From Fidelibacterota bacterium (GTDB taxonomy: Bacteria > Pseudomonadota > Alphaproteobacteria > Rhodospirillales > Rhodospirillaceae), in contig CANJMF010000010.1 in the NCBI GenBank assembly GCA_947475895.1, forward strand, positions 1-64,000: a stretch of DNA of 64,000 nt. The letters are read 5' to 3'. The translations under genes and the position numbers were made by a program. Every line of letters starts with the position of its first letter. Within the stretch, counting starts at the first letter, position 1. A model generated the notes under the pieces. It did not search any database. It had not been told where the DNA came from and saw only the letters and a list, made by a program, of their open reading frames with translations. Shown here in pieces: positions 29,674-51,478 of the stretch.

Positions 29674-30213
29674 TTACTTTCGCAAGCGCCAACAACGCGC
29701 AAACTCCTCAAGGTAACAGGTCACGTTAAGGACTGAGCCGACGAAGAAAGCGCCGAAATACCATAACGGCAGCGTTTCTTCTTTAAAGCGCACGCTAAAA
29801 TCACCTTCGGCGGAACCCAAGCCGAGCAACGCCAAGCTTTGTTCCCAATACGCAACGAGCGTCAAGAACAGCAGCGCGAACGGAATCGCCGTGAGGTAGT
29901 CGTGGAAACGCTGCTCTGTGATGGAGATCACGCGATATTTCGAAGCGTAGGTAAAATCCCACGTTGCGACGATTTCGTGAGCAACATAGAGACCTAACGC
30001 TGCAGCGAGAAATAACGCATTGATCTGAAAAACGAGGCCGGCCAGGAGCAGGCTTCCGGCGCTGAAAATCATAAAAAGATGAAAAGCGGACTCTTTCCAC
30101 CCCGCCGTATGCTCGATATCCGCGCGGCGGTGCTGCCACCAGTCGCCGATGCCCGCGACGATCCAGGCAGGAACCAGAAAACCCAGAACGATGGCGGCAT
30201 AGACGGCGTGCAT
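29674..30213 (-). CDS. Conserved hypothetical membrane protein, stress-regulated
   Basis: 179 residues with about four or five hydrophobic segments. Between them are conserved-looking polar/His patches: DWWQHRRADIEHTAG near residue 25, AHE near residue 79 and RFHDY near residue 102. These could be metal ligands or lipid-interface residues, but I cannot assign a reaction. The N-terminus starts within the first membrane segment and there is no cleaved signal. The gene stands alone and is preceded by a perfect EcfG-type promoter, so it is probably induced in the general stress response. Confidence 0.8.
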   Translation of the reverse strand: MHAVYAAIVLGFLVPAWIVAGIGDWWQHRRADIEHTAGWKESAFHLFMIFSAGSLLLAGLVFQINALFLAAALGLYVAHEIVATWDFTYASKYRVISITEQRFHDYLTAIPFALLFLTLVAYWEQSLALLGLGSAEGDFSVRFKEETLPLWYFGAFFVGSVLNVTCYLEEFARCWRLRK

Positions 30214-30246: not shown

Positions 30247-30272
30247 AACGGCGCTCCAAAGTCAAAAGTTCC
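30247..30272 (-). promoter_or_regulatory. EcfG-type general-stress promoter (GGAAC-N17-CGTT)
   Basis: On the minus strand GGAAC (30268-30272) and CGTT (30247-30250) are 17 nt apart, matching the alphaproteobacterial EcfG consensus. The ATG of the membrane protein is 33 nt downstream of the -10, giving a short leader. Confidence 0.7.
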
Positions 30273-43044: not shown

Positions 43045-43135
43045 CTTGTTTGGCTCCTAGGCTTAAAAGGCTAGTGCAATTTATGCTGCGTTGCGAGATG
43101 ATCTTTCGAATACACACTTCTGGGTCCGGGCCATT

Positions 43136-43822
43136 ATGGCCAGGGCTGGAAGGCGTAATTGGGGAGGTACGGCCCTGACAACGTTAACGATTTCGAGCCG
43201 CAATTACTCGTCCTGGTCGCTACGCGGCTGGTTGCTATGCAAGATTGCGGGGATCGAGTTCACGGTTAAGACCGTTTCCCTGGATGATCCATCGGCACGG
43301 GCGGAACTCCTGTTACTCTCGCCGTCATGCCTCGTCCCGTGTTTGGATCACAAGGGGGCCAAAATCTGGGACACCCTAGCGATCGCAGAATACTTAGATG
43401 AAGAGTTTCCAAAAGCCGGCATGTTACCCAGTGACCGCGTAAAACGGGCGCGTTGCCGCTCGGTGTCCGGTGAGATGCACTCCGGATTTTACAATCTCCG
43501 CTCTGCACTGCCGATGAACCTCAAGGCACGCTTTCCCAACTTCAAAACCTGGGCCGGCGCAAAGCCCGATATCGCGCGGGTTAAGGCCATCTGGCAGGAA
43601 TGCTTGGATGAAAGCGGGGGTCCCTATCTCTTTGGCAAATTATCTATGGCAGATGCCATGTATGCTCCCGTCTGCACGCGCTTTAATACCTATGACGTCG
43701 AAATGGACGACGTTTCGGCGGCGTATTGCAAAACGATTCTGAAATGGCCGGCGCTCAATGAATGGATTGAAGCGGCAAAATCCGAGCCCGACGAAATGGC
43801 AGAATTAGATGCCGAGTTTTAG
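43136..43822 (+). CDS. Glutathione S-transferase family protein
   Basis: 228 residues from the ATG at 43136. The thioredoxin-fold N-terminal domain begins LTISSRNYSSWSLRGWLLCK, where the Ser after SSRNYS is the likely glutathione-activating residue. Then come SPSCLVPCLDHKG and the IWDTLAIAEYLDEEFP motif, and an all-helical C-terminal domain. It is of the YfcF/maleylacetoacetate-isomerase-like branch; substrate unknown. The start is uncertain: the family N-terminus corresponds to a CTG at 43175, which has GGAGG 7 nt upstream, whereas the ATG has no ribosome site. The gene stands alone, divergent from phaZ. Confidence 0.85.
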   Translation: MARAGRRNWGGTALTTLTISSRNYSSWSLRGWLLCKIAGIEFTVKTVSLDDPSARAELLLLSPSCLVPCLDHKGAKIWDTLAIAEYLDEEFPKAGMLPSDRVKRARCRSVSGEMHSGFYNLRSALPMNLKARFPNFKTWAGAKPDIARVKAIWQECLDESGGPYLFGKLSMADAMYAPVCTRFNTYDVEMDDVSAAYCKTILKWPALNEWIEAAKSEPDEMAELDAEF

Positions 43823-44135
43823 GCCCAACTCCTAAGGGCGCCTGCCTGCCCAGCCCACTACTAATTGTGGTGTTTCGGCTCCAATTGAAAAATTGTGCGC
43901 GCGAACAACCGCTACGGAACATTTCGCATCACAGGGCGTTGGTAACCCTCAGGAGGGTTGCGGCTAGAGGCAAGCTGCGGGCGCGGTGGTAACCACTCAT
44001 GACGAAGAACGCACCGATGATGGCGGTGCATCGTTTCTTCTGTGGCCATTTCGTGACGCATCAGCACCTACCGTGACCGGCGCGAAGCGACTCGTAAGAG
44101 CGTCCGCGTAGTTCGCACAGACAAGGGGCGCAGCC
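43823..44135. other. 313-bp intergenic region upstream of the signalling cluster
   Basis: This region contains the EcfG-type promoter at 43916-43940. The roughly 195 nt between the promoter and the kinase start hold no ORF that I can support. The long leader is GC-rich and may be structured. Confidence 0.6.
43916..43940 (+). promoter_or_regulatory. EcfG-type general-stress promoter (GGAAC-N16-CGTT)
   Basis: GGAAC at 43916-43920 and CGTT at 43937-43940 with 16 nt between match the consensus for the alphaproteobacterial general stress sigma factor. It points at the hybrid-kinase gene, whose ATG is at 44136. Confidence 0.7.
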
Positions 44136-47100
44136 ATGAACAAAGTCGCAATGGTTTCCACGCAGCTGGACAACAATCATCTCCTGTCCGCTTTGCGCGC
44201 ATTCCGAAAGGGCGACTTCTCGGTTCGCTTGCCCACAGGCCTCAGTGGCGTTGACGGCGATATCGCCGACGCCTTCAACGAAGCCGTGGAAATGAGCGAG
44301 CGCATGACGCGCGAGTTCGAGCGCCTCGGCGATTTCGTCGGCAAAGACGGCAAGATCGGACACCGCGCCAAGCTCCCCACGGCACAAGGCTCCTGGGCTG
44401 AGAACATCGACACCATCAACACCCTGATCGCGGACATGGTGCAGCCCACCGCCGAAATGGCCCGCGTGATCGGCGCCGTCGCGCGCGGTGACTTGTCGCA
44501 AACCATGAATCTCGAAATCGATGGCCGTCCTCTGCGTGGTGAATTTCTGCGCATTGGTAAGGTCGTGAATACGATGGTGGGGCAGTTGTCGTCCTTCGCC
44601 TCGGAAGTGACGCGCGTCGCGCGCGAAGTGGGTACCGAAGGACGACTGGGCGGTCAGGCGCAGGTGCGCGGCGTCGCCGGTACGTGGAAAGACTTGACCG
44701 ATAACGTGAACCTCATGGCCGCGAACTTGACTGGCCAGGTGCGTAACATCGCCGAAGTGACGACCGCGGTGGCCAAAGGCGACTTGTCCAAGAAAATCGC
44801 CGTCGACGTCAAAGGCGAAATCTTGGAGCTGAAGAACACCATTAACACCATGGTGGATCAGCTAAACGGCTTCGCCTCGGAAGTGACGCGCGTCGCGCGC
44901 GAAGTGGGTACCGAAGGAAAGCTCGGCGGTCAGGCGCAGGTGCCCGGCGTCGCGGGGCTCTGGCGCGATCTAACCGATAACGTGAACGCCATGGCCGCCA
45001 ACTTGACGGGCCAAGTGCGTAACATCGCCGAAGTGACGGCCGCCGTGGCCACGGGGGACTTGTCCAAGAAAATCACCGTCGACGTGCGCGGCGAAATTCT
45101 CGAACTGAAATCCACCATCAACACCATGGTGGACCAGCTGAACTCCTTCGCCTCGGAAGTGACGCGTGTCGCGCGCGAAGTCGGTACCGAAGGAAAGCTG
45201 GGTGGTCAGGCCAACGTGCGCGGCGTCGCCGGTACGTGGAAAGATTTGACCGATAACGTGAACATGATGGCCGCCAATTTGACCGGCCAGGTGCGTAACA
45301 TCGCCGAAGTGACGACCGCCATCGCGCGCGGCGACTTGTCCAGAAAGATCACCGTCGACGTGAAGGGCGAAATTCTCGAACTGAAGTCCACGATTAATAC
45401 GCTCGTCGATCAGCTGAACTCGTTCGCTTCCGAAGTGACGCGCGTCGCGCGCGAAGTCGGCACCGAAGGAAAGCTGGGTGGTCAGGCCCAAGTGCCAGGC
45501 GTCGCCGGTACGTGGAAAGATTTGACCGATAACGTGAACATGATGGCCGCCAACCTGACGTCTCAGGTGCGTGGTATCGCCGACGTCGTGACCGCGGTGG
45601 CGCAAGGTAACCTGCGCCGCAAACTGACCGTCGACGCGAAGGGCGAAATCGCCTCGCTGGCCGACACCATCAACGGGATGATCGAGACGCTGGCGACCTT
45701 CGCCGATCAGGTAACCAACGTGGCCCGCGAAGTGGGTATCGAAGGAAAACTGGGCGGTCAGGCCCGCGTGCCTGGCGCCGCCGGTCTGTGGCGCGACTTG
45801 ACCGACAACGTGAATCAGCTGGCCGCAAATCTGACCACACAGGTCCGCGCCATCGCCGAAGTGTCCACGGCCGTGACGAAGGGTGACTTGACCCGGTCCA
45901 TCGCCGTCGAAGCGTCAGGCGAAGTGGCCGCACTGAAAGATAACATCAACGAGATGATCCGAAATCTGAAGGATCAGACGTTGAAAAACACCGAGCAGGA
46001 CTGGCTGAAAACCAACCTCGCGCGCTTCACGCGCATGTTGCAGGGCGAACGCGATCTGGCCACCGTGTCGAACATGGTGTTGTCGGAACTGGCACCGCTG
46101 GTCAACGCGCAGCACGGCTTATTCTACGTCACCGACAAAGACGAGGAAGGCAGTGTCACACTCAATCTCGCCGCCTCATACGCATTCACACATCGCAAGC
46201 ACCTCTCGAACAAGTTCGCGCTGCGCGAAGGATTGGTCGGACAGTGCGCCTACGAAAAATCGCGCATTCTGTTGACCAACGTTCCGATGGACTACGTCAA
46301 GGTCGCCTCGGGTCTTGGTGAAGCCGCACCCTTGAACGTGATCGTGCTGCCGGCCGTGTTCGAAGGCGAAGTGAACGCGGTCATCGAACTCGCGTCCTTC
46401 AGCGAGTTCTCCGAAACCCACCAATCGTTCCTCGATCAGTTGATGGAATCGATCGGGATCGTGTTGAATACAATCGCTGCCAACATGCGTACCGAAGGCC
46501 TGTTGAAGCAGTCGCAGCTCCTGACGTCGGAACTGCAAGCCCAGCAGGAGGAGTTGAAAAAGACCAACGACCGTCTTGAGCAACAAGCCAACTCGCTGCG
46601 TCAATCGGAAGAACTTCTGCGCACGAAGCAGGACGAATTGCAGCGCACCAACGTCGAACTGGAAGACAAAGCGCAACTGCTGTCCACGCAGAATGCGCAG
46701 GTGGAAGCCAAGAACCGCGAAGTGGAACAAGCCAAGCACGACCTGGAAGAAAAAGCCGAACAGCTGGCGCTCACGTCCAAGTACAAATCGGAATTCTTGG
46801 CCAACATGAGCCACGAGTTGCGCACGCCGCTGAACAGCTTGCTCATTCTCTCGAAGTTGCTGTCTGCGAACACACAAGGCAACCTGACCGAAAAGCAGGT
46901 GGAATTCTCGCACTCCATCCACCACGCAGGTTCCGATCTGCTGGCACTCATCAACGACATTCTCGATCTGTCCAAGATCGAGTCCGGTACGGTCTCGCTC
47001 GATGTCGGCGAAACCTTCTTCGCCAGCCTGCGCGACCACATGGATCGCACCTTCGCCCAGATGGCGCAGGACAAGAAACTGGCCTTCAATATCGAATTCG

Positions 47101-48368
47101 ACCCCGAATTGCCGCGTTCGATCTTCACCGACGACAAGCGCCTGCAACAGGTCATCAAAAATCTGCTGTCCAACGCGTTCAAGTTCACCGAGAACGGGCA
47201 CGTCAAACTCAAGATCGCACGTGCCGTCGGCGGTTGGTCGCCCTTGAGCGAGCATCTCAACAACAGCAATCAGGTCCTGGCGTTCACCGTCGAGGATACC
47301 GGCATCGGCATCCCCGAAGAAAAGCAGCGCATCATCTTTGAAGCCTTCCAGCAGGCTGACGGAACCACCAGCCGCAAGTATGGCGGAACGGGTCTCGGCC
47401 TCTCCATCAGCCGCGAAATCACGCGTCTGTTGGGCGGCGAGCTTAACGTCGTCAGTTCCGTGGGCCGCGGCAGCACGTTCACTCTGTATCTGCCGCTCAA
47501 TTTCACGCCGCCGGCCAAGCAGCCCGGCCGTATCGTCAACACCAGCATGCGAGCTGTCGCTGCGATGGATGCTGAAGTAGCAGCACAGGAATCCGCCGTT
47601 CAAGATGATCGCGATTCCATCAACCGCGGAGATCCGACCGTGCTCATCGTCGAAGACGACCCGCGCTTTGCCGGCATTATGTTGAATATGGCCCGTGAGG
47701 CCGGGTTCAAAGGCGTCGTTACGGGTGAGGGAATGGCCGTCATTCCGCTCGCAAAACGCTTCCGCCCCGATGCCATCACGCTCGACATCGGGCTGCCCGA
47801 TATCGATGGCTTCGCGCTTCTCGATCTCCTGAAACGCAACCCGGAAACGCGCCACATCCCCGTGCACATTATTTCGGGCGATGAGGAAAACCGTATCGGT
47901 CTCGGCATTGGCGCTTATGGGTTTAGCGGCAAGCCCGTCGAGCCCGACACGATCCTCGCCACCTTCAAAGGTGTGAAGGACTTCAACGCGCGCACCAAAC
48001 GTGTGCTTGCCATCGAATCCGAATCCAGCAGCGGCGGCCTGCAAGCGCTGATGGGCAGCGCTGATCTTGATGTTGAAAGCGTCGGCGCCTTACCTGAAGC
48101 TTTCGGTGACGAAACCTATGACTGCGTGGTCATTGACTGCCGCGAGGAATGGGATCGGCCCTTGGCGGAAATCATCGAAGCTCTACGAGGCGCCGAGGTT
48201 TCATTCGTCGCCTTTGTGCCGCGCGAATTGACCGAGCAAGAGCAGAATTATCTCACCGACCTGTCCCTGACGGAGCGCCAGCGTGTCGCGAAATCGGAAG
48301 CGCAGCTCCAAGATGACGTTGCATTCATTCTGCACCGGTCGGTCGATACGCTGCCGGCGAATGCGTAG
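44136..48368 (+). CDS. Soluble poly-HAMP hybrid histidine kinase (Nik1/group III-like)
   Basis: 1410 residues with no membrane segment. Residues 1 to ~615 are a chain of HAMP units, mostly as 92-residue repeats ([20 protein letters not shown], [22 protein letters not shown]). A GAF domain (~625-785), a long coiled coil (~790-880), HisKA with the phospho-acceptor His893 in [12 protein letters not shown], and an ATPase domain ([20 protein letters not shown]) follow. Next is a receiver with Asp1217 in [10 protein letters not shown], then a second, degenerate receiver-like domain. The layout resembles fungal osmosensor Nik1 kinases and their bacterial relatives. It probably senses an internal cue and feeds the receivers encoded next. 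It is likely controlled by the EcfG promoter 196 nt upstream. Confidence 0.93.
44601..45980 (+). repeat. Five 276-bp tandem HAMP repeats
   Basis: Units begin at 44601, 44877, 45153, 45429 and 45705, each exactly 276 bp (92 codons). The first four are nearly identical at the nucleotide level over long stretches. The fifth is more diverged. Such repeats can expand or contract by recombination, and they could collapse in an assembly. Confidence 0.88.
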
Positions 48369-48374
48369 GACCTC

Positions 48375-48842
48375 GTGAAGCAAATTCGCCAGTGCGATCC
48401 CATGCTCGCGGGGCGCAAGGTGGCGGTCATAGACGACGACATCCGCAACATCTTCTCGCTCACCAGCGCGCTCGAAGAACACGGTGTCGAACTGCACTAT
48501 GCGGAAAGCGGTCGCGCCGGGATCGAGTTGCTGCAACGCATCCCCGATGTAGACGCGGCCCTAATCGACATCATGATGCCCGGCATGGACGGCTACCAAA
48601 CCATGCAGGAAATTCGCACCATGCCGCAGTTCTCGTCACTTCCCATCATCGCCGTCACGGCGAAAGCCATGAAGGGCGACCGCCAGAAATGTATCGAAGC
48701 CGGTGCCTCGGACTATGTGGCCAAGCCGGTGGACATCGAGCAGTTGGTATCGGTGCTGCGTGTATGGTTCCACCGCACGGAGCGTCCTCGACTTTTGAAG
48801 CGCACCGGCACGGACAACGTCGTCAACTTCCCGGCGCAGTAA
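48375..48842 (+). CDS. Single-domain response regulator
   Basis: 155 residues: a receiver (VAVIDDDIRN, phospho-acceptor Asp in ALIDIMMPGMDG, the switch Thr in AVTAKAM and the Lys in VAKPVD) with a short C-terminal tail and no DNA-binding domain. It starts with GTG at 48375, 6 nt after the kinase stop; ATG 48402 (MLAGRKV) is an alternative. By position it is a likely phosphotransfer partner of the hybrid kinase and of the HWE kinase that follows. Confidence 0.9.
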   Translation: MKQIRQCDPMLAGRKVAVIDDDIRNIFSLTSALEEHGVELHYAESGRAGIELLQRIPDVDAALIDIMMPGMDGYQTMQEIRTMPQFSSLPIIAVTAKAMKGDRQKCIEAGASDYVAKPVDIEQLVSVLRVWFHRTERPRLLKRTGTDNVVNFPAQ

Positions 48843-48861
48843 TGACATTTAAGCGCAATTT

Positions 48862-50064
48862 ATGCCGGGTACGGGACATCTAATGGACGCGGAACAGTTG
48901 GCTCTCGATGTGGGCGCGATAAAAGCCCGGATCCTGATCGTCGATGACGATCGGGTTACGGCGCTTGCGTTGCGGGCCGCATTGGAGCGACTTGAGCAGA
49001 CGGTCGTGGTCGTTCACTCCGGCGAGGAGGCGCTCTACCAACTGCTGCATGAAGATTTCGCCGTCATCCTGCTCGATTTGCAGATGCCCGGCATGGACGG
49101 GTATGAAACGGCAGCCCTCATTCGTGCGCGCAAGCGCACACGCCATATTCCAATCCTGTTCCTCACAGCTGTCTTCCGCGACGATTCGCACTTGCTGCAA
49201 GCTTATTCAGCCGGCGCTGTGGATATGGTCTTTAAACCCGTCGATCCCTTCGTTTTGGCATCGAAGGTTCAGATCTTCGTCGACCTCTACATGAAGCAGA
49301 TGGAGATTCAGCGCGAAGCTGAAATGCGCCATCGCCTGCAGGAAGAAAACTTCCGCGTCCGCGCCGAGAAGTTATCGGCCGAGCAAGCGCTTCTGCGCAG
49401 CCAGCAACATCAAGAAGAGATGCGCCGTGCGGAAGCCCATCAGCGCATCTTGATCGAGGAGCTAAGCCACCGCGTCAAAAACATGCTGGCCGTGGTCAAT
49501 GCGATGGCGCGCCAAACGCTCGCGAGCACGACTGATCCTAAACTGTTCGTCGATAAATTCCTGCGCCGCATCGAGGCGCTCGGACGCACCCACGGACTTC
49601 TCTCGCGGGAAAATTGGGGCGATATCCAGCTGCGTGAAATCGCGCGCGAAAGCCTAGAGCCTTACATGATGGAAGACCGCAATCGCGTTGTGTTCAGCGG
49701 CCCCGCCGTGCCGTTAAAACCCAAAGCAGCGCTCGGCTTAGGCATGGTGTTCCATGAGCTTGCGACCAACGCCATCAAGCACGGCGCGTTGTCGAATAAT
49801 GATGGTCGCGTAAAAGTTGATTGGGATTTTGACGCCGACGACGCCACGCGCATTAAGCTCAATTGGGGCGAGGAACACGGTCCCGAGGTCACGCCGCCGT
49901 CGCGCAATGGTTTCGGCAGCCGCCTTATTAAACTTGAACTTACGCATGAATTAAACGGAGCCGTCGATTTGGCCTGTGAGAAAGAAGGATTCCGTGCGGT
50001 GATGTCGTTCCCCACGGAACGCGAGTCATCCGCCATCGCCAATCAGGTCAGGAACGCATCATGA
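48862..50064 (+). CDS. Receiver-HWE/HisKA_2 histidine kinase fusion
   Basis: 400 residues. An N-terminal receiver (ILIVDDDRVT, Asp in LLDLQMPGMDGYET, Lys in VFKPVDP) is followed by a coiled-coil linker (~135-190). The kinase core belongs to the HWE family: the phospho-His block ELSHRVKNMLAVVNAMARQT, the N-box HELATNAIKHGAL and the WGE of KLNWGEEHG. HWE kinases are common in alphaproteobacteria and often feed the PhyR-EcfG stress pathway, which fits the upstream promoter. It starts at ATG 48862; ATG 48883 is an alternative. Its stop overlaps the next receiver gene by four bases. Confidence 0.93.
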   Translation: MPGTGHLMDAEQLALDVGAIKARILIVDDDRVTALALRAALERLEQTVVVVHSGEEALYQLLHEDFAVILLDLQMPGMDGYETAALIRARKRTRHIPILFLTAVFRDDSHLLQAYSAGAVDMVFKPVDPFVLASKVQIFVDLYMKQMEIQREAEMRHRLQEENFRVRAEKLSAEQALLRSQQHQEEMRRAEAHQRILIEELSHRVKNMLAVVNAMARQTLASTTDPKLFVDKFLRRIEALGRTHGLLSRENWGDIQLREIARESLEPYMMEDRNRVVFSGPAVPLKPKAALGLGMVFHELATNAIKHGALSNNDGRVKVDWDFDADDATRIKLNWGEEHGPEVTPPSRNGFGSRLIKLELTHELNGAVDLACEKEGFRAVMSFPTERESSAIANQVRNAS

Positions 50065-50420
50065 GCACAGACAAATGCAATAGCGTGCTGATCGTCGAGG
50101 ACGAGACTCTGATTGCCATGGATCTGCAGGACATGCTGCAGGATGCGGGTTACCGCGTCCTTGGGCCGGTCGGTTCCGTCGCGGCGGCCATGCGTCTGCT
50201 GGATGGTGAAAAGCCTGATCTCGCCTTGCTCGATGTCAATCTCGGCGGCGAGAACGTTTTTAAGGTTGCGACTGAACTTGCGTCCGGCCAATCGCGCATT
50301 GTGTTCCTCACAGGCCATAGCGAGCAGCATTTGCCGGAAGAGCACCGCCATCGTCCGCTGGTCACCAAGCCCTACCTGCCGCACACGGTGTTGGCAGCCA
50401 TTGAACGCACATTGATGTAA
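50061..50420 (+). CDS. Single-domain response regulator
   Basis: 119 residues, receiver only (VLIVEDETLIAMD, phospho-Asp in ALLDVNLGG, Lys in VTKPYLP). It belongs to the group of small receivers commonly placed next to HWE kinases. ATG 50061 overlaps the kinase stop (ATGA), so the two are made together and probably act as a pair. It converges on hemH with 20 nt between. Confidence 0.92.
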   Translation: MSTDKCNSVLIVEDETLIAMDLQDMLQDAGYRVLGPVGSVAAAMRLLDGEKPDLALLDVNLGGENVFKVATELASGQSRIVFLTGHSEQHLPEEHRHRPLVTKPYLPHTVLAAIERTLM

Positions 50421-50440
50421 TTGTCGCGATGTAATCGCCG

Positions 50441-51478
50441 TCAGCGCGTCTGATGCGGGCACTTCATGAAGTGAGGCGGGCAGATGCGCGCGCCCACGGC
50501 CGAGCAAGGTGACGTACAGCTCTTAAGCACGCGATCCAAGCTTGCAAGCAGCGCGACAAAGCGCGGCTCCGTACGGACGGCCGGCGTGCGTACATAAAAC
50601 GGTACACCGGCTCCCTCCGCATACTCACGCATGGTGTCGTCAAGTTCGACGAGCGTTTCAACGTGCTCCGAAACGAATGCAATCGGCGCCACCACTAACG
50701 GCACGCCGTCTTTTCCCGCGCGGTCGATTTCGCTTTCGATCGAAGGGCCGATCCACGCCACGGGACCCACGCGGCTTTGGTAGCAGATGCTCCAATCCAG
50801 ATCGGGAATACCCAGGCGCGTGACAACGGCTGCTGCCGTTTGTTCGACCTGCCACTGATAAGGATCGCCGGCGTCGATGATCTTTTGCGGCAACCCATGG
50901 GCCGATAACAGCACGCGCGGTTTTCCGTGCTCGGCGGCCGCGGCGTAATCGCGCGCGATCATTTCCGTCACGGGCTCGATGAAGCCGTTCTCGGTGGGAT
51001 AGCAGCACACGCTTTCCAACGGCACAGTAAAACCCTGGCTCGCGGCGGCACGCTTCAACGCTACCAACGACGTCTCCGTCGTGGTCGTCGAAAACTGCGG
51101 ATAGAGCGGCAGCACAACAACACGCGTCGGGGCGTAGGCTTTTAATTGCGCGATGACCTCGGGCGCCATGGGATGCCAATAGCGCATGAACACGAAGACC
51201 TTGGCGTCATCGCCGCGCGCGCGGACGACGGCTTCAAGCGCTGCGGCTTGCGCGCGGGTTTCGGCCGGCAAAACCGACTTGCCGCCCAGCTTGGCGTAAT
51301 AGCCTTGCGACTTCTTGGCGCGCGTTGTCGAAATCAGCGTTGCGATCAGCCAGCGCAACGGCGTCGGCAGATCGATGATGTAGGGGTCGAAAAACAAATT
51401 GAACAGGAAGGGCCGCACCGCCGCAGGGCTGTCGGGGCCACCCAGACTGAACACAACAATGGCGAGTTTTTCGGCCAT
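50441..51478 (-). CDS. hemH: Ferrochelatase
   Basis: 345 residues. Family markers are VVFSLGGPDSPAAVRPFL at the start, the RYWHPMAPEV block, LPLYPQFSTTTTETS, the metal-site SAHGLPQKIIDAGDPY and the SICYQSRVGPVAWIGPS block with FVSEHVETLVELD. It inserts ferrous iron into protoporphyrin IX. The last 26 residues hold four Cys (C..PC..IC..KC), consistent with the [2Fe-2S] cluster known in some ferrochelatases. It is divergent from the hemA operon across a 105-bp region with a tandem GTGACAT repeat. Confidence 0.96.
   Translation of the reverse strand: MAEKLAIVVFSLGGPDSPAAVRPFLFNLFFDPYIIDLPTPLRWLIATLISTTRAKKSQGYYAKLGGKSVLPAETRAQAAALEAVVRARGDDAKVFVFMRYWHPMAPEVIAQLKAYAPTRVVVLPLYPQFSTTTTETSLVALKRAAASQGFTVPLESVCCYPTENGFIEPVTEMIARDYAAAAEHGKPRVLLSAHGLPQKIIDAGDPYQWQVEQTAAAVVTRLGIPDLDWSICYQSRVGPVAWIGPSIESEIDRAGKDGVPLVVAPIAFVSEHVETLVELDDTMREYAEGAGVPFYVRTPAVRTEPRFVALLASLDRVLKSCTSPCSAVGARICPPHFMKCPHQTR

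Follow-up and report, generated by a model that had tools for sequence, protein, structure and literature searches.

A probable EcfG-type promoter upstream of a poly-HAMP kinase operon, a candidate feedback arm of the alphaproteobacterial general stress response

The site at 43916-43940 of the window (the whole 64,000-nucleotide stretch of DNA analysed here) is probably a working EcfG promoter of a kinase operon that acts as a feedback arm within the general stress response; we place this reading at a probability of about 0.72. The DNA itself shows the promoter motif and its repeated occurrence among relatives, the genes of the PhyR-NepR-EcfG cascade and intact kinase motifs. Since the EcfG-type promoter and the cascade genes are joined by an HWE kinase and a last receiver that are closest to proteins of the general-stress type, a feedback loop is the best reading of the operon. 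The features are as follows.

43916..43940, + strand: predicted EcfG-type promoter, with -35 GGAAC at 43916-43920, a 16-nt spacer and -10 CGTT at 43937-43940
43941..44135, + strand: leader to the ATG, 195 nt, little conserved among orthologues
44136..48368, + strand: poly-HAMP hybrid histidine kinase, 1410 aa, with HAMP repeats, GAF, HisKA, HATPase_c and one Pfam receiver
48375..48842, + strand: receiver, with two possible starts, GTG 48375 (155 aa) and ATG 48402 (146 aa)
48862..50064, + strand: REC-HWE histidine kinase, with two possible starts, ATG 48862 (400 aa) and 48883 (393 aa), and with an HRVKN H-box and an HELATNA N-box
50061..50420, + strand: single-domain receiver resembling SdrG and the receiver of PhyR, overlapping the kinase gene by 4 nt

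Results and Discussion

The promoter site and its leader

The sequence GGAACATTTCGCATCACAGGGCGTT at 43916-43940 on the forward strand matches GGAAC-N16-CGTT, and is thus an exact instance of GGAAC-N16-17-CGTT, which we take to be the EcfG (sigma T) promoter consensus. The site is intergenic, lying 93 bases 3' of the stop of an upstream ORF with glutathione-S-transferase domains (43091-43822) and 195 bases 5' of the ATG at 44136. The initial annotation, which had placed this motif ahead of the kinase cluster and read it as a general-stress promoter, is borne out on both counts: given the position of the site, the recurrence of the motif before orthologues and the cascade genes in the genome, we are highly confident that this is a real EcfG-type promoter. 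Transcription of the operon would then presumably be by EcfG. Sequences like the consensus also appear in a table of a Sphingomonas melonis study, within the accessible part of that paper (PMC6599016).

The leader contains a terminator-like hairpin at 44011-44029, which we considered as an attenuator but do not favor, as terminator-like matches in the region number 6 against a shuffle mean of 8.6, that is, below it, and the stretch is little conserved. A 25-codon ORF from ATG 43999 (43999-44076) overlaps the hairpin, and the DNA there is poorly conserved. No Rfam family reaches its gathering score in 43500-44400.

Position of the motif across the genome

The motif count alone lends the site no significance, in the window or in the genome: the window holds three matches versus 2.99 expected (spacers 15-18), and the whole genome 73 (N16-17) versus 100 for the reversed pattern. 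The site is significant because of an intergenic position bias and because the motif recurs upstream of orthologues. For the position test, genes were called by a home-made simple codon model, the first 30 of the 100 reversed-pattern sites served as the control set, and 72 motif sites were classified together, with the 73rd (C5:84825) read separately. Intergenic positions were occupied by 51 of the 73 motif sites versus 3 of the 30 controls (Fisher p 1.6e-8); 36 versus 2 were both intergenic and at most 250 nt before the next start on the same strand (Fisher p 3.0e-5), the window site being one of these 36. When the first 30 sites are set against the first 30 controls, 23 versus 3 are intergenic and 17 versus 2 near a start. 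The contrast is weaker for the next 30 sites (16 intergenic, 8 near a start), and among the 12 sites of the window and contig C22, 11 are intergenic and 10 near a start; the site on C5 makes up the remainder of the 73.

Genes downstream of the sites include those for a catalase (63 nt), a BON-domain protein (50 nt) and a hemerythrin (199 nt), as well as a CsbD-like gene that lies 411 nt behind its site and hence falls outside the 36; all four are as expected of a stress regulon. Within the window, a further GGAAC-N17-CGTT at 30247-30272 on the reverse strand is followed after 34 nt by an ORF of 179 aa (29674-30213) that contains extended hydrophobic segments.

Recurrence upstream of poly-HAMP loci

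A search of 61 genomes, the source genome included, with the poly-HAMP N-terminus returned eight matches at E <= 1e-20. The four closest orthologues all belong to the source genus (G013, G003, 88% identity; G012, G004, 77%), and each carries the strict motif on the sense strand 156-228 bases before its ATG, compared with 195 in the window. The leaders have diverged to 51% mean column identity in a DNA alignment, in which the window motif occupies other columns than the motif of the four orthologues; the case therefore rests on motif and distance. Two more distant loci of the same genus (54-55% identity) divide, G014 having the motif and G001 lacking it. The poly-HAMP genes of G003 and G013 have a divergent neighbour with a motif of its own (L081 4941-4965, reverse strand; L083 1074-1098, forward strand), such that two divergent stress-type sites lie within one intergenic region.

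The wider comparison covered 17 poly-HAMP loci, namely the eight from the 61 genomes, seven alphaproteobacterial loci and two new ones, of which 16 were readable. Fifteen of 80 alphaproteobacterial loci (L147-L161) were examined, and seven of the 15 contained the poly-HAMP start; as these loci had been fetched by their receiver-kinase, the presence of a receiver-kinase behind their poly-HAMP gene is a selection effect. The motif lies at most 700 nt from the conserved N-terminal segment in 10 of the 16 readable loci, Caulobacter among them, and the site is seen also in Phenylobacterium. The strict motif is missing from the remaining six (L153, L156, L160, G001, G244 and G124), with L156 reading GGAAC-N16-GGTT instead; the seventeenth locus, L150, was left out of the count and has a site before its gene. 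Among the ten motif-bearing loci the spacer is 16 in seven and 17 in three; one locus each matches also with spacers of 12 and 19, and the motif occurs antisense in two loci. When the two boxes were permuted in 360 ways, the real pair was found in 10 loci, a one-base shift of the same site in 6, one pair in 2 and the rest in 0-1. The sequences surrounding the ten sites are 56-64% identical in pairwise comparison, with the exception of two pairs at 70%.

Kinases and receivers of the operon

The close spacing of the four reading frames suggests one operon, and the genes would presumably be co-transcribed. The gene order of the initial annotation holds for the poly-HAMP kinase, the REC-HWE kinase and the final receiver, but its second gene is, from the reading frame, the last receiver of the poly-HAMP kinase, split off by an in-frame stop. 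This receiver (48375/48402-48842) is in frame with the poly-HAMP gene and separated from it only by the TAG at 48366-48368, and the poly-HAMP protein runs unbroken across that junction in G013, G003, G012 and G004. Given the unbroken protein in these four relatives, either the receiver has been split off here or the assembly is wrong at 48366-48368.

The REC-HWE kinase scores 91.3 bits against PF07536 (HWE_HK) and has the HRxxN phosphoacceptor motif; both the H-box (ELSHRVKN) and the N-box (HELATNA) are unchanged across five aligned orthologues, so it may be an active kinase. It is found at E < 1e-50 in the same 5 of 61 genomes as the close poly-HAMP gene, with at most 30 candidates from a first look scored per genome. 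For its kinase part, the nearest PDB matches are 6ph4 and 5epv, 'Blue-light-activated histidine kinase'. Pfam at E <= 0.001 finds no LOV domain in it and gives a receiver, HWE_HK and HisKA_2 only.

The last receiver of the operon (50061-50420) has SdrG (5ieb) and 2lpm as its nearest PDB matches, with PhyR-type receivers among the next. When the 40 genome matches to the PhyR profile are ranked, it comes second (77.1 bits, in the receiver part only). SdrG and MrrA bear the FATGUY motif, PFxFATG(G/Y), as given in the accessible text of PMC5964349. The window protein reads RIVFLTGHS and lacks this motif; we therefore class it only as SdrG/PhyR-receiver-like. This receiver is found in G003 and G013, whereas in G012 the kinase gene is not followed by it; the G004 contig stops shortly after the HWE gene, and there the receiver could be lost from the assembly only.

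The PhyR-NepR-EcfG genes

The genome search proposed in the initial annotation found all three types of gene, together on contig C22; the absence of EcfG and PhyR homologues, on which that proposal would have foundered, is thus not what the genome presents. The nepR gene matches PF18557 at 26.7 bits (cut-off 25.7) and adjoins an ECF sigma gene whose best PDB match is 5uxx. We regard this sigma gene as ecfG-like by its position beside nepR and by its own motif, 158 nt upstream, an assignment made without an EcfG-specific profile. A phyR gene with PhyR_sigma2, PhyR_sigma-like and receiver domains lies 1.2 kb beyond the sigma gene and, at 340.6 bits, is the only one of the 40 genome matches to PhyR profile NF006623 above the cut-off. 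Nine of the 73 genomic motif sites fall within the 9.2 kb around phyR, nepR and ecfG. In this stress island (L032, C22:28000-46000) with its nine GGAAC-N16/17-CGTT sites, two overlap and are divergent, one before ecfG and the other before a 95-aa gene.

Kinase type across lineages

The next gene downstream of the poly-HAMP kinase varies from lineage to lineage. In G020, where the promoter motif is present, and in G001, of the source genus, where it is absent, this gene encodes REC-PAS-HWE and a second receiver stretch. In L147, with the motif, it encodes REC-PAS-HisKA, with a C-terminal end outside the sequence read, and in Caulobacter sp. Root1455 (L148), also with the motif, REC-PAS-HisKA-HATPase and a second receiver stretch. 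The receiver part of the L147 protein is 70% identical to that of the window over residues 21-192. Compared with the window gene at 48862-50064, the kinase half thus differs in L147 (11218-12498), L148 (10417-12453) and L085 (8334-10199), being HisKA or HWE and accompanied by PAS, and L147 and L148 keep a well-conserved receiver despite the differing kinase half.

We offer tentatively, at somewhat below even odds, the proposal that a poly-HAMP kinase and a receiver-kinase with a lineage-variable kinase half make up a previously undescribed sensory branch, under EcfG control, of the stress response in Alphaproteobacteria. If so, what stays constant would be the promoter together with the poly-HAMP sensor, whereas the type of kinase would vary, and any kinase present would be wired into the stress loop.

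A probable feedback arm and its alternatives

We envision that, under stress, phosphorylated PhyR would bind NepR and thereby free EcfG, and that free EcfG would transcribe the operon from 43916-43940. The operon would supply the poly-HAMP hybrid kinase (in two reading frames here), the REC-HWE kinase and the PhyR-receiver-like single-domain regulator, and phosphate exchange with the PhyR branch would run by way of the REC-HWE kinase and the single-domain receiver. Phosphotransfer of the window kinases to or from PhyR is put forward from family resemblance. The initial annotation had proposed a loop in which the stress sigma factor boosts its own sensing machinery; the loop remains likely from the promoter, the cascade genes and the similarities of kinase and receiver, whereas a boost is only possible, the LovK-LovR analogue being one that dampens the response in the accessible text of PMC5964349. 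For a resetting or damping sign we see even odds, and the precedents of LovK-LovR and NepR2 make damping somewhat likelier than boosting.

A positive loop, in which EcfG raises a PhyR-activating kinase and so sensitizes the cell, is a sub-case of the feedback-arm reading, with which its odds overlap, and we consider it possible at roughly one chance in three. The retained H-box and N-box of the window kinase are in its favor, as are the Paks of S. melonis, HWE/HisKA_2 kinases that, in the portion of the study available, phosphorylate PhyR and SdrG in vitro (PMC5898713); yet LovKR (PMC5964349) and NepR2 (PMC6599016), described as being under stress-sigma control in the passages available, are negative.

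Less probable, and in our judgment unlikely, is that the promoter is real and the operon only an output, its kinases running another process, e.g. motility or surface attachment, with no feedback on PhyR. The first kinase is indeed HisKA, not HWE, and a HisKA half follows the poly-HAMP kinase in L147 and Caulobacter L148 although the motif is present, so that an HWE link to PhyR is no constant feature; moreover, SdrG and the kinases activating the general stress response are tied also to motility and biofilm genes in S. melonis, according to the available part of PMC6599016. Against this, the closest proteins to the single-domain receiver are SdrG and the receiver of PhyR, and those to the HWE kinase are blue-light-activated histidine kinases.

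A chance intergenic match, with another promoter driving the operon, is very improbable: the window has as many matches as chance predicts and six of the 16 poly-HAMP loci lack the motif, but the motif stands in diverged leaders before the four closest orthologues and before other alphaproteobacterial poly-HAMP genes, only the real box pair and its one-base shift recur in more than two loci, and a scan of 43600-50700 for E. coli-type sigma-70 sites, the one promoter type it covers, found none.

Comparison with known systems

The nearest parallel to the feedback-arm reading is LovK-LovR of Caulobacter crescentus, of which the accessible text reports that LovK (HisKA_2 group) and the single-domain receiver LovR are SigT-controlled, draw phosphate from MrrA and dampen the response (PMC5964349). 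Both systems encode together a kinase of the HWE/HisKA_2 group and a single-domain receiver, and both place such an operon under a stress-sigma promoter, for the window as judged by motif and gene order only. LovK-LovR acts on the PhyR branch, in the same passages of that paper (PMC5964349), and the window operon putatively does so. In contrast to LovK, the window kinase has no LOV domain and bears an N-terminal receiver, and the first gene of its operon is a poly-HAMP hybrid kinase. The same source describes Caulobacter CC2874 as a HisKA kinase feeding MrrA (PMC5964349), a possible parallel. Caulobacter HmrA was rejected as a poly-HAMP counterpart, being, in the available description, a transmembrane kinase with one HAMP domain (PMC11481889).

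In S. melonis Fr1, the Paks are HWE/HisKA_2 kinases with the HRxxN motif, as is the window kinase (PMC5898713, in part). The last receiver finds its best PDB match in SdrG, a likeness of sequence alone; SdrG differs in having the FATGUY signature. In the accessible part of PMC6599016, the negative regulator NepR2 is among those that EcfG controls in S. melonis, and the receiver PkrB, which is tied to PakB, belongs to the genes whose regulation responds to a stress mix. That stress sigma factors control regulators of their own response is thus already known from LovK-LovR (PMC5964349), NepR2 and, as we understand the source, PkrB (both PMC6599016), insofar as the accessible texts describe them, and for this reason the principle is not new. 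In searches of the open-licence PMC literature, as far as its texts were accessible, a poly-HAMP hybrid kinase operon linked to EcfG was not found. What is added here is such an operon with a stress promoter, extending from the source genus to Caulobacter and Phenylobacterium. The operon is a concrete, testable candidate for an additional arm, for input or for reset, of the general stress response, which probably acts back on some of its own signalling components.

In fungal group III kinases, a HisKA kinase and a receiver come after an array of HAMP domains. The window protein shares this order with such poly-HAMP hybrid kinases; it differs from the fungal proteins in being bacterial, in carrying a GAF domain as well as one more receiver, and in sharing an operon with a REC-HWE kinase.

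Further signalling genes preceded by the motif

On contig C5, the motif lies 34 nt upstream of a CheB-CheR-PAS-HWE gene followed by a receiver gene (L069 4326-4350, reverse strand), which makes this pair a second candidate feedback unit. In the stretches read, a strict site stands ahead of two of the eight HWE/HisKA_2 kinase genes of the genome, namely the window operon and the C5 gene. The motif also occurs 122 nt before a PAS-HisKA kinase gene on C15, 155 nt before a receiver protein gene on C2, 28 nt before a PAS protein gene on C9 and 9 nt before a weakly matching receiver gene on C22.
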